Shown here: positions 2,739 through 50,508 of the stretch, in pieces
Layout of the letters: each line of letters starts with the position of its first letter
How positions within the stretch are numbered: the first letter of the stretch is position 1
NCBI RefSeq assembly: GCF_019968905.1
Contig: NZ_CP079946.1
Span: forward strand, 1,860,001 to 1,924,000
Source: Corallococcus sp. EGB
GTDB lineage: Bacteria > Myxococcota > Myxococcia > Myxococcales > Myxococcaceae
Length of the DNA: 64,000 bases
Direction: 5' to 3'
The notes under the pieces: generated by a model
Database searches by the model: none
Seen by the model: only the letters and a program-made list of their open reading frames with translations
Told to the model about the DNA's origin: nothing
Made by a program: the position numbers and the translations under genes

Positions 2739-2791
2739 ACCCGGGAGCGTGTGCCCCCGCCACGTCCCGGACGTGCCGGGACGGCCGGCGA

Positions 2792-2811
2792 CCTGTCCGA
2801 CGGTCGGACTA
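2792..2811. repeat. Single copy of the TGTCCGAC-N-GTCGGACA palindrome
   Basis: GTCCGAC (2795-2801), a central G and GTCGGAC (2803-2809) form a perfect interrupted palindrome with a CCT prefix, matching the core of the repeats at 32.1 and 50.2 kb. Its right end overlaps the TAG stop (CTA on the plus strand, 2809-2811) of the S37 peptidase gene. Confidence 0.75.
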
Positions 2812-4533
2812 GTTCCGCGACGCCGCGCGCAGCCGGGGCGGCACGTGGGGGCCGAAGACGGGCGGCTCCTCCGACAGCGACACCTTCGGAGACTGCTTCA
2901 GCGGGGCGAGGCCCATCCAGCGGTTGAGCGTGGCCTTCGCCTCCGCCTGCTGCGCCGCCGGGAGCTGGCTGATGCGCGAGCCGTGGTTCCCGCCCGCCAC
3001 CGTGTAGAGATAGGAATCCTGCGCGTTGCCCAGTGTGTAGGCCGCCGCCGTCCACGGGTCATGGCTGCCGTAGATGAACATCAGCCGCTGCCCCTTCGTG
3101 TTCACCCAGTCCTGGATGTCCGGCATTGCCTGGGGGCGGAACACGAACGGGATGCCCGGCGGCGAGTACACCTCACCGGTGTCGGTGTCCGGGAAGTGGA
3201 TGAGCGCGCCCAGGTGCTTGTCATAGGGCTGGGGCCAGCCCAGCTCCGCCGCAGCCTGGTAGTAGTAGGCGGCGTACGGGGCGAGGCCCGAGTCCGCGAA
3301 CGAGTTCATGCCCACTTCGTAATCCATCGCGTCGAACAGCTGCTGGTCCGTCGCGGTGGTGGCGGGGATGTTCCGGGTGCAGTTCGCCGCGGAGTCGTAC
3401 TGCCAGAAGGCGAAGTAGGTCTCGATGGCGGCGTGCTCCAGCGCCAGCTCGAAGCCGAGCTGCGAGTAGGTCAGCGCAGGCTTCTGCGCCTGCGCATAGG
3501 ACTTCAGGAGCGTGAGCATGTTCTCCCGCCGCGAGAGCACCTCCCGCTGGAAGGCCCACAGCCGCTCACGGCAGGCCACCTGCGCGTCGCCGCCCACGGT
3601 GTCCTGGAACGTCACGAAGCGCTCGTCGTTGCGCTTCGCGATGGGCGCCACGTACGCCACCGTGGCATCCACGTCGTCCGGGTGGAAGCGGCGGAAGAAC
3701 ACCACCGTCTCGCCGCCCTTGCTGCCGCCCGTGGACACCCACTTGCCGGTGTAGATGAGCTTGAGCGCCTGGGTGAGGCGGTGGAAGTCATCCGCGGACT
3801 GGCGGATGGTGAGGTGGCTCCAGTCCGCGGGCTCTGGAATGCTGGGCGGGAAGAAGCGGTGCTCCACGGCGACCTGGTTCGCCGCCAGGAGCTGTGTGGG
3901 CTCGCTGCGGCCCGTTCCGGTGGAGACGTTGTAGCCGCTGGTGGAGAGCACCATCGGGCTGGTGTCCGCCTTGTGCATCAGCGTCAGGCGCTGCTCGAAG
4001 CGCTGGCACTCCGGGTGGGCGTGGTCCGACGGCTGGTTGTAGCGCAGGAGGAAGAGCCGGTAGCCCGCGGGCACGTTCGCGCCGTTGGGGTTCTCCTGCA
4101 CGGCGAGGCCCGGGATGGCCCGCAGCCGGACCAGGATGTCGAGCGATGTGTTCTGGATGACGCTCAGGTCCGGCGGCGTGTCGACCCAGCCGCTCGGGGT
4201 ACACGTCACCACGCCGCCGTCGGTGCCCGCGTCGGCGTCCGTGCCCGCATCGGCCTCGGAGCCCGCGTCCCCGTCGGTGCCCGCGTCGGCGTCCGTGCCC
4301 GCATCGGCCTCGGAGCCCGCGTCCACGTCGATGCCCGCGTCCGAGTTCGGGCCCGCATCGGCCTCGGTGCCCGCGTCCGAACCGGCGTCCACGGTCTGGG
4401 GGCCACTGTCGGGGCGCGGATCATCCGGGCCGTCGTCGCCACAGGCGACCGGGCCGCCAAGCAGGGCGAGCAGGGGAAGGGCCAGCAACACACGGGGAAG
4501 GCCAGCGGCGCGAGGCATGAAGGTCTCCATCAA
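2809..4533 (-). CDS. Lipoprotein serine peptidase, family S37 (tripeptidyl aminopeptidase type)
   Basis: 574 residues. A lipoprotein signal ends at C31 (LGGPVAC). Residues 40-107 are a low-complexity Asp/Ala/Gly linker that probably holds the enzyme off the membrane. The catalytic part follows from about 115: the nucleophile S271 lies in TGGSKGGE, the acid is D492 in YGSHDPW, and the histidine is H517 in GGNHGSR. Together these match the PS-10 / S37 alpha/beta-hydrolase peptidases of Streptomyces, which remove tripeptides from protein N-termini. The role is inferred to be extracellular protein digestion, fitting a predatory or proteolytic lifestyle. The gene is convergent with the nuclease and divergent from the M49 peptidase. 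The linker DNA carries a perfect tandem repeat. Confidence 0.87.
   Translation of the reverse strand: MMETFMPRAAGLPRVLLALPLLALLGGPVACGDDGPDDPRPDSGPQTVDAGSDAGTEADAGPNSDAGIDVDAGSEADAGTDADAGTDGDAGSEADAGTDADAGTDGGVVTCTPSGWVDTPPDLSVIQNTSLDILVRLRAIPGLAVQENPNGANVPAGYRLFLLRYNQPSDHAHPECQRFEQRLTLMHKADTSPMVLSTSGYNVSTGTGRSEPTQLLAANQVAVEHRFFPPSIPEPADWSHLTIRQSADDFHRLTQALKLIYTGKWVSTGGSKGGETVVFFRRFHPDDVDATVAYVAPIAKRNDERFVTFQDTVGGDAQVACRERLWAFQREVLSRRENMLTLLKSYAQAQKPALTYSQLGFELALEHAAIETYFAFWQYDSAANCTRNIPATTATDQQLFDAMDYEVGMNSFADSGLAPYAAYYYQAAAELGWPQPYDKHLGALIHFPDTDTGEVYSPPGIPFVFRPQAMPDIQDWVNTKGQRLMFIYGSHDPWTAAAYTLGNAQDSYLYTVAGGNHGSRISQLPAAQQAEAKATLNRWMGLAPLKQSPKVSLSEEPPVFGPHVPPRLRAASRN
4217..4324 (-). repeat. 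54-bp perfect tandem duplication encoding the DAG linker
   Basis: Bases 4217-4270 and 4271-4324 are identical over 54 bases, which is 18 codons of the Asp/Ala/Gly linker. Partly matching units flank the pair. Length variation here would change the linker without breaking the frame. Confidence 0.85.
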
Positions 4534-30665: not shown

Positions 30666-31790
30666 TCAAGACACGGCGGGCTGGGGCCGCGCCTCCCGGG
30701 ACGCAAGCCCGCGCTCCAGCCGTTCCCGCAGCCTCAACATGGGGCGCTCCACGCCATGGTGCAGCGCGAGCGAGGCGAGCAGCACCGCCACGGCGCCACC
30801 CAGCACCGTGACGGCGTGGAACGCGTCCAGGCCATGGGGCGCGAGCGCGTCCCGCACGCCGTGCTGCACGGCCTTGTGCGTGAGGTAGACGGTGAAGCTC
30901 AGGACCGCGAAGGTTCTCACGCCCGGGACGCGGGCGCAGAGGCGCGAGGCCGTGGGGCCCGCCAGCGCCATCAACAGCGCCGCGAAGCCCAGCGCGGCCA
31001 GGGGGAATGAAAGCAGGACGTAGGGGAGCTCGCGGAAGTGCTCCTCGTTGATGAAGAGCACGCCGCCCAGGCACGCGAGGCCCAGGGCCGCCAGTCCCAG
31101 GGCACGGCCGCCGCGCGTCCAGCGCTCCCATGCCGCGGGCCGGAACACGCGCAGGGCCGCGAGCAGCACTCCGCAGGTCAGCCCATCGAGCCGCGCGTAC
31201 GTCGGGTAGTAGAGCAGCATGTCGAAGTCGCGCCACCCCGGTGCGTCCGGACCGAGCCCTGAGAAGGAGCGCATCCACAGCCCGCCGCGCAGGAGCATGC
31301 CCCCGACCATCACGCCGCCCGCGAGCGCGAGGAGCGACGGCGCGCGGATGCGTCGGCGCAGTGCGAGCACGGTGAGCGGCAGCACCAGGTAGAAGTGCTC
31401 CTCCACGCACAGCGACCACGCGTGGGAGAAGCCATTGATGCGCAGGCCGAAGTTCTGCGTGAAGGTGAGGAAGCGCCACGCGGGTGTCACCACGGGCCGC
31501 TCGCTCCACGCTGGCACGAAGAGGTACAGGCCCAGCACGACGAGGAACGACGGCAGGATGCGCAGCGCGCGTCGAAGGTAGAAGCGCCGGAGTGACGGCG
31601 TCTCACCGCGCGACACCGGCTCCAGCAGCTGCGAGCCGATGAGGAAGCCGCTGAGCACGAAGAACAGCTCCACGCCCGTCCAGCCGAAGTTGGCGAAGGC
31701 ACGGAAGGCGTCGTGACCTTCGGGGCGGGGGTAGTGGTAGACGACGACGACGAGGATGGCCAGGCACCGGAGCAGGTCCAGGCCGGCCAT
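30666..31790 (-). CDS. Acyltransferase-3 (OafA/YrhL-like) membrane protein
   Basis: 374 residues from ATG at 31790. A region of about ten helices starts MAGLDLLRCLAILVVVVYHY, with the catalytic-site His in the first loop, ELFFVLSGFLIGSQLL, RFYLRRALRILPSFLVV and SHAWSLCVEEHFYLVLPL (S-L-x-V-E-E/x-F-Y). These are the PF01757 hallmarks. Open frame without a standard start extends upstream to a TGA near 31829, so the true start might be slightly earlier with a non-standard codon. The protein transfers acyl groups to surface sugars or lipids. Cluster A of palindromes lies immediately upstream. Confidence 0.88.
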   Translation of the reverse strand: MAGLDLLRCLAILVVVVYHYPRPEGHDAFRAFANFGWTGVELFFVLSGFLIGSQLLEPVSRGETPSLRRFYLRRALRILPSFLVVLGLYLFVPAWSERPVVTPAWRFLTFTQNFGLRINGFSHAWSLCVEEHFYLVLPLTVLALRRRIRAPSLLALAGGVMVGGMLLRGGLWMRSFSGLGPDAPGWRDFDMLLYYPTYARLDGLTCGVLLAALRVFRPAAWERWTRGGRALGLAALGLACLGGVLFINEEHFRELPYVLLSFPLAALGFAALLMALAGPTASRLCARVPGVRTFAVLSFTVYLTHKAVQHGVRDALAPHGLDAFHAVTVLGGAVAVLLASLALHHGVERPMLRLRERLERGLASREARPQPAVS

Positions 31791-32457
31791 GTGGCGCGGT
31801 TCGGTGGCGTTCAGCGGAGTCAGCTTTCAGCGTGGGGGGATGCGCCTGATGCTAGCAGGGCGACTTCGCTCCGCCAGGGACGCGCCGCTCGGCGCCGTCG
31901 CAAGGACCAGGAACCCTGTGAACCCGAGCGAATCAGGAGCACGCCGGGACAGACGCGAAGAACACCGCCTCGCGCAGTCATCCCAAGTGGATGCGCCCCA
32001 TGGACCCGGGGGCCACCCCCACACCCCAGGAACAACTGTCTCTCCACGGCTCTGAGAAGACGGGACCTCAGGGGAGCCCCCGTCGGCGGCGAGCCGCGGA
32101 AACCTGTCCGACATTCGGACCGGTTTCGAGAGCCACGGCCAAAGGGGCGGCCCGGCCGCATCAGGATGCGGCAACCTGTTGGACCGTCGGACCGGTTTCG
32201 AGAACAGCGTCTGGTGGGGCGCCGCTCCGCTCGGGCAGCGCGGAAACCTGTCCGACAGTCGGACAGGTTTTGGCGAACCGTGGCCGCAGGGGGCATCCCT
32301 CCGCCCTGACCGTGCAACCTGTCCGACAGTCGGACAGGTTTTGGCGAACCGCGTCCGGCGGGGGGCGGGCCATTTGGATGGCCGGGCCTTGGGGGGGCCG
32401 GCTCCGTGCTCCGAACGGGTCCCCGGTTGCCGTGGCACGCTCGGTGCTTGTTTCGGC
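31791..32457. other. Intergenic region holding palindrome cluster A
   Basis: This 667-base stretch lies between the acyltransferase start and the FAAL stop. Both strands are open over long parts but show no recognisable protein family, so I call it non-coding. It holds the four-copy palindrome array at 32101-32340 and nothing else I can assign. A promoter for the acyltransferase must lie near its left end. Confidence 0.6.
32101..32340. repeat. Palindromic repeat cluster A, four copies at 72/72/71 base period
   Basis: Copies of AACCTGTCCGAC-N-GTCGGACAGGTT occur at 32101-32125, 32173-32197, 32245-32269 and 32316-32340. The last two are perfect and share the following TTGGCGAACCG; the first two carry a few substitutions (for example ATTCGG, TGTTGGAC). 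The spacing is 72, 72 and 71 bases. Each could form a ten-base-pair hairpin with an ACAGT loop, or be a DNA site for a dimeric protein. See the findings for interpretation. Confidence 0.9.
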
Positions 32458-34311
32458 TCAGACCGCGTCGCCTGTTCCCTGGCTCAGGACATCCAGGTCC
32501 TCCCTCCGTGCGCCCAGGCGTGACGGCACGCGTGCCAAGACCCGGAACTCTGGCGCTGACAGCTCGCCGGAGAATTCGTCGCCGGTCCGCGCGTTCGCGC
32601 ACCAGGCGTGCAGCTCGCGCAGCGCTCCGGTGAGGAACGCCTTCCGCGTGGCCCTCCGCTGTACCTTTCCGCTGGAGGTCTTGGGCAGGCTTCCGGGCTC
32701 GATGAGCACCACCGCGCGGGGCCGTACCTCGTGCACCGACGCCAGACGGCCGCGGATGGCGCGGAGCACCGGGGCCACTTCGCCGTCCCACTTGCGCGGA
32801 TCCACCTCCTGCACCACGACCAGGTGCTCCTCGCCGTCCACCTCGACGCCAAAGGCCACGCCACAGCCGGGCCTGAGCGCGGGGTGGCTTCCCTCGACCA
32901 CCACCTCCAGGTCCTGCGGATACAGGTTCCGGCCCCTCACGATGATCAGGTCCTTCTCGCGCCCGGTGACGTACAGCTCGCCCGCGCTCAGGAAGCCCAG
33001 GTCTCCGGTCCGGAGATACGGGCCGTCTCCCTGGTCGGTCCTCGCCTGGAACACCCGCGCGGACTCCGCCTCGCGGCGCCAGTAGCCCTGCGCCACGCTG
33101 GGGCCCTTCACCCAGACCTCGCCCACCTCACCCGCCGGAAGCACTCGGCCCGTGTCCGGCGCCACAATGCGCAGGGATTGATCCGGCAGCGTCGCGCCGC
33201 TGCCCACCAGCGTCCGGGCCATGCCCGCGGGCGCCCGGGCAAAGCCTGCCTCCAGCGCGGAGGCGTCCACGTCGCGCAGCCTGGGCTCGGCCTCCTTCGC
33301 GCCGCCAGTGACGATGAGCGTCCCTTCCGCCAGGCCATAGCAGGGATAGAAGGCTTCGCGCCGGAAGCCGTGCGGCCCGAAGGCCTCCTCGAAGCGCGCC
33401 AGCGTGTCCGGGCGGATGGGCTCCGCGCCGCAGAACGCCACCTCCCAGTGGCTCAGGTCCAGCCCCTCCCGCTCCGTGGGCGGGATGCGCCGCACGCACA
33501 GGTCGAATGCGAAGTTGGGTCCGCCGCTGATGGTGCCGCCGAAGCGGGTGAGCGCCTCCAGCCAGGCCCGGGGCCTCTTGAGGAACGACAGCGGGGACAT
33601 CAGCGCCGTGTGGAAGCCCTGCGCCAGCGGCACCAGCACGCCGCCAATGAGTCCCATGTCGTGGTAGGGCGGCAGCCAGATGACGCCCACGCTGTCGTCG
33701 CGCGTCGCGAAGGCGCGGCAGATGGCCCCCAGGTTGTGCAGCAGGTTGCCGTGGCTGAGCATCACGCCCCGCGGCACCCCGGTGCTGCCGGACGTGTACT
33801 GGAGGAAGGCCAGCGAGTCGGCCGTCACGTCCGGCCGCTGCCATGCCGCCGCGTCGCCCGCCTCCAGCGCATCCGTCGCCACCCACTGCAACGCGCGCAG
33901 CTCCGGCGCGTCCGTGAAGAGGAGCTCCGCCATGGAGAGGATGAAGGACGTGGTGAGCACCACCGTGGCCCCGGAGTCCGCGATGAGCGCGCGCAGGCGG
34001 GGCAGGGTGCGCTCCAGCCTCGAGGGATCCGGAGGATACGCGGGCACCGCCACCAACCCCGAGCACACGCAGCCGAAGAATCCGTGGAGGTAGTCCGCGC
34101 CAGGGGGATAGAGCAGGACCGCGCGCTCGCCCGGTGCCGCGAGCGGCTGGAGCGCGGCGGCGATGCGGTGCGCGCTCGAGGCCAGCTCGCCCCGGGTGAG
34201 CGTCACCTCCGCGTCATCCTCCAGGAAGGTGTAGAGGGGGAGCTCCCGAGGACGGCGGCCCGTTTCCTCGAGCAGGTCGATCAGCGTGATGGACGGGCAT
34301 GCGGACCTCAA
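32458..34311 (-). CDS. Fatty-acyl-AMP ligase (FAAL/FadD32-type)
   Basis: 617 residues from TTG at 34311. GGAGG lies six bases upstream, and TTGA overlaps the preceding gene's TGA, so translation is coupled. The adenylate-forming core motifs are YTSGSTGVPRGVMLSHGNL, VIWLPPYHDMGLIGGVL, SGGPNFAFDLCVRR, EVAFCGAEPIR and YGLAEGT. The late motifs are YLRTGDLGF, RNLYPQDLE and the catalytic Lys in LPKTSSGKVQRR. The pattern LPPYHDMGLIGG is typical of FAALs, which activate fatty acids as AMP esters for polyketide or peptide synthases rather than as CoA. No carrier protein follows in the window, so the acceptor is elsewhere. The odd partner is the barrel protein gene upstream. Confidence 0.9.
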   Translation of the reverse strand: MRSACPSITLIDLLEETGRRPRELPLYTFLEDDAEVTLTRGELASSAHRIAAALQPLAAPGERAVLLYPPGADYLHGFFGCVCSGLVAVPAYPPDPSRLERTLPRLRALIADSGATVVLTTSFILSMAELLFTDAPELRALQWVATDALEAGDAAAWQRPDVTADSLAFLQYTSGSTGVPRGVMLSHGNLLHNLGAICRAFATRDDSVGVIWLPPYHDMGLIGGVLVPLAQGFHTALMSPLSFLKRPRAWLEALTRFGGTISGGPNFAFDLCVRRIPPTEREGLDLSHWEVAFCGAEPIRPDTLARFEEAFGPHGFRREAFYPCYGLAEGTLIVTGGAKEAEPRLRDVDASALEAGFARAPAGMARTLVGSGATLPDQSLRIVAPDTGRVLPAGEVGEVWVKGPSVAQGYWRREAESARVFQARTDQGDGPYLRTGDLGFLSAGELYVTGREKDLIIVRGRNLYPQDLEVVVEGSHPALRPGCGVAFGVEVDGEEHLVVVQEVDPRKWDGEVAPVLRAIRGRLASVHEVRPRAVVLIEPGSLPKTSSGKVQRRATRKAFLTGALRELHAWCANARTGDEFSGELSAPEFRVLARVPSRLGARREDLDVLSQGTGDAV

Positions 34312-50189: not shown

Positions 50190-50508
50190 AACCTGTCCGA
50201 CTGTCCGACAGGTTCATGCCGCACGAATCCAGCGCGCGTCCACGCACAGGGGAAGCGCCGACCCGCAGCCGCGGGCCAGCGTGGACAGCAAAGAGGATCC
50301 ACCGGCAGAGGCCGCCCACCGGGCGCGCTTTCCGAAAACTTGTCCGACAGTCGGACAGGTCTGCGCCGCGGCCCCGAGTTCGTGAACATGTCCGACAGTC
50401 GGACAGGCTTTCACCGCATGGGGCCGGAGGCCGCGAGCTTGTCCGACAGTCGGGCAGGTCTGCGCCGCAGCCCCGAGTTCGCGAACATGTCCGACAGTCG
50501 GACAGGAT
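50190..50508. repeat. Palindromic repeat cluster B, five copies upstream of the GntR gene
   Basis: Copies of the 25-base palindrome lie at 50190-50214, 50337-50361, 50385-50409, 50436-50460 and 50484-50508. Spacing is 147, 48, 51 and 48 bases, always a multiple of three. The 2nd/3rd and 4th/5th copies form two similar pairs 99 bases apart that also share the sequence between (CTGCGCCGC, CCCCGAGTTCG). A weaker copy may lie at 50043-50059. All copies are inside a frame that stays open into the GntR gene. Confidence 0.9.

Follow-up and report, generated by a model that had tools for sequence, protein, structure and literature searches.

Four copies of a palindrome of the form AACCTGTCCGAC-N-GTCGGACAGGTT, evenly spaced by 72, 72 and 71 bases in an intergenic region of a Corallococcus genome, raised the question of what this repeat is and which gene, if any, it belongs to. 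The window (the whole 64,000-nucleotide stretch analysed here) also carried, about 18 kb from the four copies, a gene for a predicted GntR/FadR-type regulator with an array of the same palindrome directly upstream (Table 1). The four copies were confirmed in the sequence, as proposed in the first-pass annotation, though the description of four copies of one sequence was slightly overstated: copies 3 and 4 matched the consensus exactly and were identical over 36 bases (including TTGGCGAACCG), but copy 1 (ACATTCGGACCGG) and copy 2 (GTTGGACCGTCGGACCGG) deviated from it. Nine hits with at most 3 mismatches were found in the window, against 0 expected in 100 shuffles. The array lies between genes encoding an acyltransferase (PF01757) and a fatty-acyl-AMP ligase (PF00501 and FAAL models); in several congeners the place next to the FAAL gene continues as sequence that looks coding (NRPS-like).

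Table 1. Palindromes and associated features in the 64,000-nucleotide window (mismatches are counted against the 25-base consensus, or against the array-end motif where stated).
Position	Strand	Feature	Mismatches	Remarks
2790-2814	+	Single palindrome	3	Between convergent genes
30666-31790	-	Acyltransferase gene		PF01757
32051-32068	+	Position of the array-end motif GATGAGAAGGTGAGAACC	7 (against the motif)	Degenerate here; 0 and 1 mismatches in the orthologous arrays of relatives G010 and G006, at 33 bp from the first palindrome
32101-32125	+	Palindrome copy 1	2	
32173-32197	+	Palindrome copy 2	3	
32245-32269	+	Palindrome copy 3	0	
32316-32340	+	Palindrome copy 4	0	
32458-34311	-	Fatty-acyl-AMP-ligase gene		PF00501 and FAAL models
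50190-50214	+	Palindrome upstream of the FadR-like gene	1	
50337-50361	+	Palindrome upstream of the FadR-like gene		
50385-50409	+	Palindrome upstream of the FadR-like gene		
50436-50460	+	Palindrome upstream of the FadR-like gene	4	
50484-50508	+	Gene-proximal palindrome, putative operator		Ends 67 bp before the start codon
50576-52015	+	Predicted GntR/FadR-type regulator gene		Likely start ATGTCAGACCCC; one of 9 copies in this genome
51806-51830	-	Degenerate palindrome near the 3' end of the regulator gene	5	Intact at the matching place in simple elements of low-copy species

The complete genome (9,431,171 bp, one contig, coordinate 1 lying in dnaA) contained 229 sites with at most 3 mismatches and none in the reversed-pattern control. 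The genome and its 15 congeners had 6-285 sites each, while most other genera of the family had none; contigs with the exact palindrome, going by their record titles, also included Hyalangium versicolor and a Myxococcaceae MAG. The exact palindrome core was not found in IMG/VR viral contigs. In 1.26 Mb of sequence from this genome, mostly chosen around known hits, 286 sites (at most 6 mismatches; control 0) formed 60 clusters, and only 19 of these sites were in predicted genes, although 87% of that sequence was coding according to a home-made codon-usage gene finder. The sites formed tandem arrays of 1-20 copies, with spacings near 38, 50, 58 and 70 bp (36-40, 48-54, 57-60 and 65-73 bp), usually one class per array. 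A period of about seven DNA turns, as noted in the first-pass annotation, fits the array at 32 kb, but other arrays had other periods, and helical phasing was only suggestive (R of 0.63 at 10.25-10.5 bp), since a 16.75-bp period fitted equally well. The first-pass annotation also considered the repeat to be dispersed, not CRISPR and unlike any family it knew, and all three points hold: a CRISPR-like array, suggested only by the even spacing, is contradicted by inter-palindrome segments that are homologous to each other rather than unique spacers and by the dozens of places where the repeat occurs; Rfam gave only chance microRNA matches far below the gathering score; and the literature searched gave no paper with the sequence, with Corallococcus plus GntR in this sense, or with a GntR-linked REP (the RepRanger, GTAG/CGTC and stem-loop surveys do not name myxobacteria in their main text). 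What it did not see was the link to the regulator gene at 50.6 kb, which is the key to what the repeat is.

In low-copy Corallococcus genomes two palindromes lie about 1.1 kb apart around one gene encoding a GntR-family protein (PF00392, 39.3 bits against a cut-off of 27). No Pfam domain was detected after the winged helix, but an AlphaFold2 model (pLDDT 78 overall; residues 243-297 unreliable) showed a winged helix plus a helical domain, the best solved matches being E. coli FadR in complex with DNA (1hw1, Foldseek 3.8e-06) and FadR structures (VIA Z 18.2-18.4 over about 218 residues). The congeners had 0-15 copies of the gene. Of 63 Corallococcus copies with upstream sequence available, 62 had the palindrome (at most 5 mismatches) within 400 bp upstream, with a modal distance of 66 bp between the palindrome end and the start codon (ATGTCAG); 0.09 copies were expected by chance in the genome of the window. 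Within genomes, homology among gene copies often began at the palindrome (5' ends near -137 to -148). Copies mostly clustered by genome in the tree, even when they occupied matching places in different species, so they are amplified per lineage or homogenised.

Gene and palindrome numbers were correlated across 35 genomes (rho 0.89; 0.74 within the genus), and the association was repeated with diverged sequences in other genera. G076, a 10,260,756-bp genome of another genus, had 38 genes and 81 hits of a diverged palindrome pattern, against 0 in three congeners without the gene, and the Hyalangium-like genome G029 had 3 genes and 66 hits (counted on both strands), with 60- and 80-bp arrays. 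In one large-genome genus a single gene was flanked on both sides by AACTGGTCCGACCATCGGACCAGTT or a relative of it in three of four species. The association was not without exceptions: in G076 and other genera with about 50% identical proteins the palindrome was found only on the 3' side of the gene and one half-site was degenerate, and G014, a species without the gene, kept 14 sites, while G075 had 5 pattern hits without a detected gene. None of the 14 sites of G014 was perfect, however, against 21 of 31 in low-copy species that keep the gene (p = 1.2e-5).

The pattern of conservation was operator-like. In 338 sites, the GT and AC dinucleotides of GTCCGAC-A-GTCGGAC varied least (2.5%), followed by the middle triplets (8.5%; C9 alone 33%) and the outer arms (13.8%), and 83% of sites kept both GT-N3-AC units. 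This fits a protein site with two GT-N3-AC units, as published for the FadR subfamily, whose operators have TKGT/ACMA boxes 3 nt apart (PMC4494728), though the outer T and A of the published boxes are C and G here, the two units overlap, and the site is spread in hundreds of intergenic copies with a gene amplified up to 38 copies. A selected hairpin did not fit: double changes were not in excess (36 against 44 expected, 20 of them compensatory), C9 was changed alone in 106 sites with one compensation, and the outer arm pairs were no more complementary than permuted pairs (13.05 against 12.90). Transcription terminators or RNA-stabilising hairpins are therefore improbable, despite the strong predicted folding of the array (z -5.4) and its location nearer the 3' ends of genes; no terminator-like site was found, array orientation follows replication and not transcription, and arrays have up to 20 copies. 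One single-copy site was perfect in six species although its flanks had diverged.

Two classes of array were distinguished. Arrays with about 50-bp spacing were found upstream of the regulator gene; two such arrays without the gene (genome positions 1962543 and 1991207) kept a relic of its start, and at 1962543 the relative G006 has the gene in place. One array with about 50-bp spacing (5807806-5808183), 1.2 kb upstream of a regulator gene, has no relic of the gene start and is not explained in this way. The arrays with 65-73-bp spacing, including the one at 32 kb, were stand-alone and often had a conserved 18-bp motif (GATGAGAAGGTGAGAACC) at one end: in the sampled regions, 16 of 19 matches to this motif (at most 4 mismatches) were 30-36 bp outside one end of an array and pointed at it (e.g. 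843847 and 8298719), although array neighbourhoods were 2.8% of the sequence. Between co-directional genes the arrays were nearer the end of the upstream gene (median 95 bp) than the start of the downstream gene (214 bp). Most orthologous places that could be aligned kept an array in relatives, but copy number changed: the array at 32 kb has 4 copies here, 3 in G010, 1 in G006, 7 in G011 and 12 in G008, and another site has 1, 1, 1, 1, 8, 4, 2 and 0.

Taken together, the 25-bp palindrome is best explained as the operator of a family of FadR-type GntR regulators encoded by a repeatedly amplified gene (probability roughly 0.7). Binding of the regulator to the site and repression of its own gene are inferred from sequence and a predicted structure, as is the spread of tandemly duplicated sites through intergenic regions as a REP-like repeat. 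Arrays with about 50-bp spacing would be gene operators or relics of lost genes, whereas at stand-alone arrays the bound regulator probably acts as a decoy or structural site and not at a promoter, because these arrays lie mostly nearer the 3' ends of genes. Operators are usually few and near promoters, while most sites here are in stand-alone arrays, which weighs against this reading.

The anatomy resembles that of REP elements with RAYT transposases (PMC2817692): abundant intergenic palindromes in clusters, a cognate gene which carries the palindromes at its ends and evolves fast and species-specifically, and a correlation between gene presence and palindrome number. A classical REP/RAYT system is nevertheless very unlikely. 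The Y1 transposase domain (PF01797) had no match in the genome, though it was detected in 5 of 14 control genomes; the column profiles of 269 sites and 42 array edges showed no GTAG/GTGG head; and the cognate gene is a GntR regulator. The described REP-like families are tied to RAYT transposases, whereas this high-copy family, without a detected RAYT, is tied across genera to a multi-copy FadR-type regulator.

The palindrome might instead be the end or target of a mobile element handled by an unidentified transposase or recombinase acting in trans, with the FadR-like gene as cargo whose protein need not bind it. In G076, twenty gene copies were dispersed repeats with unrelated flanks, many of them bounded by one of two inverted repeats (CTAAGCGCTCGGACAT, about 1355 bp; GAACTCCTAACAAAAATAAGGTTTGAGG, about 1470 bp) without another recognisable gene. 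TIR1 was present at both ends in about 10 of 20 copies (7 of 400 shuffled copies), and TIR2 at the left end in 5 copies and at both ends in 2. Two unrelated inverted repeats argue that the regulator is cargo there. In Corallococcus, stand-alone units shared about 100 bp between distant loci and the end motif was one-sided. However, the inverted repeats are not the palindrome, which lies inside the G076 elements at about +822; no clean empty site with target duplication was found at two sites in Corallococcus; and this explanation, considered unlikely, predicts neither the GT-N3-AC constraint nor the 66-bp distance. As a more tentative extension of the operator reading, the gene, mobile without a recognisable transposase, and its operator may have co-amplified as a selfish system, in which a replication-oriented REP-like repeat derives from the regulator's own binding site and a transcription factor takes the place of the RAYT transposase.

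The units are directional (centre base A, with the C9 change almost always on the same side). In origin-proximal parts of three genomes the A was on the leading strand in 73 of 81 arrays (26:1 in the genome of the window, 25:4 in G010 and 22:3 in G006), with no significant bias in the terminus half; for G010 and G006 only sites up to 7.0 and 6.9 Mb were included, the G010 origin was taken at coordinate 0 and the G006 origin was placed by colinearity only. Orientation followed replication also where the flanking genes were on the lagging strand (9 of 11). This polarity is not predicted by the operator reading and may suggest oriented chromosome-organising or replication-associated sites, at which arrays bound by the regulator act on nucleoid structure or fork passage. 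Such a role is doubtful, since the polarity is lost in the terminus half, most related genera lack the sites, and copy number varies from 0 to 12 at one orthologous place and from 6 to 285 per genome, unlike an essential architecture element.

Among the few palindromes in coding sequence, some were inside two predicted NRPS genes, at the same loop just before the A3-type motif (YVIYTSGSTG): 13 tandem copies with a mostly 57-bp, in-frame 19-residue period (PVGQSDRF) in one (genome positions 4360738-4361449), and a single copy in the other (5014163-5014187).
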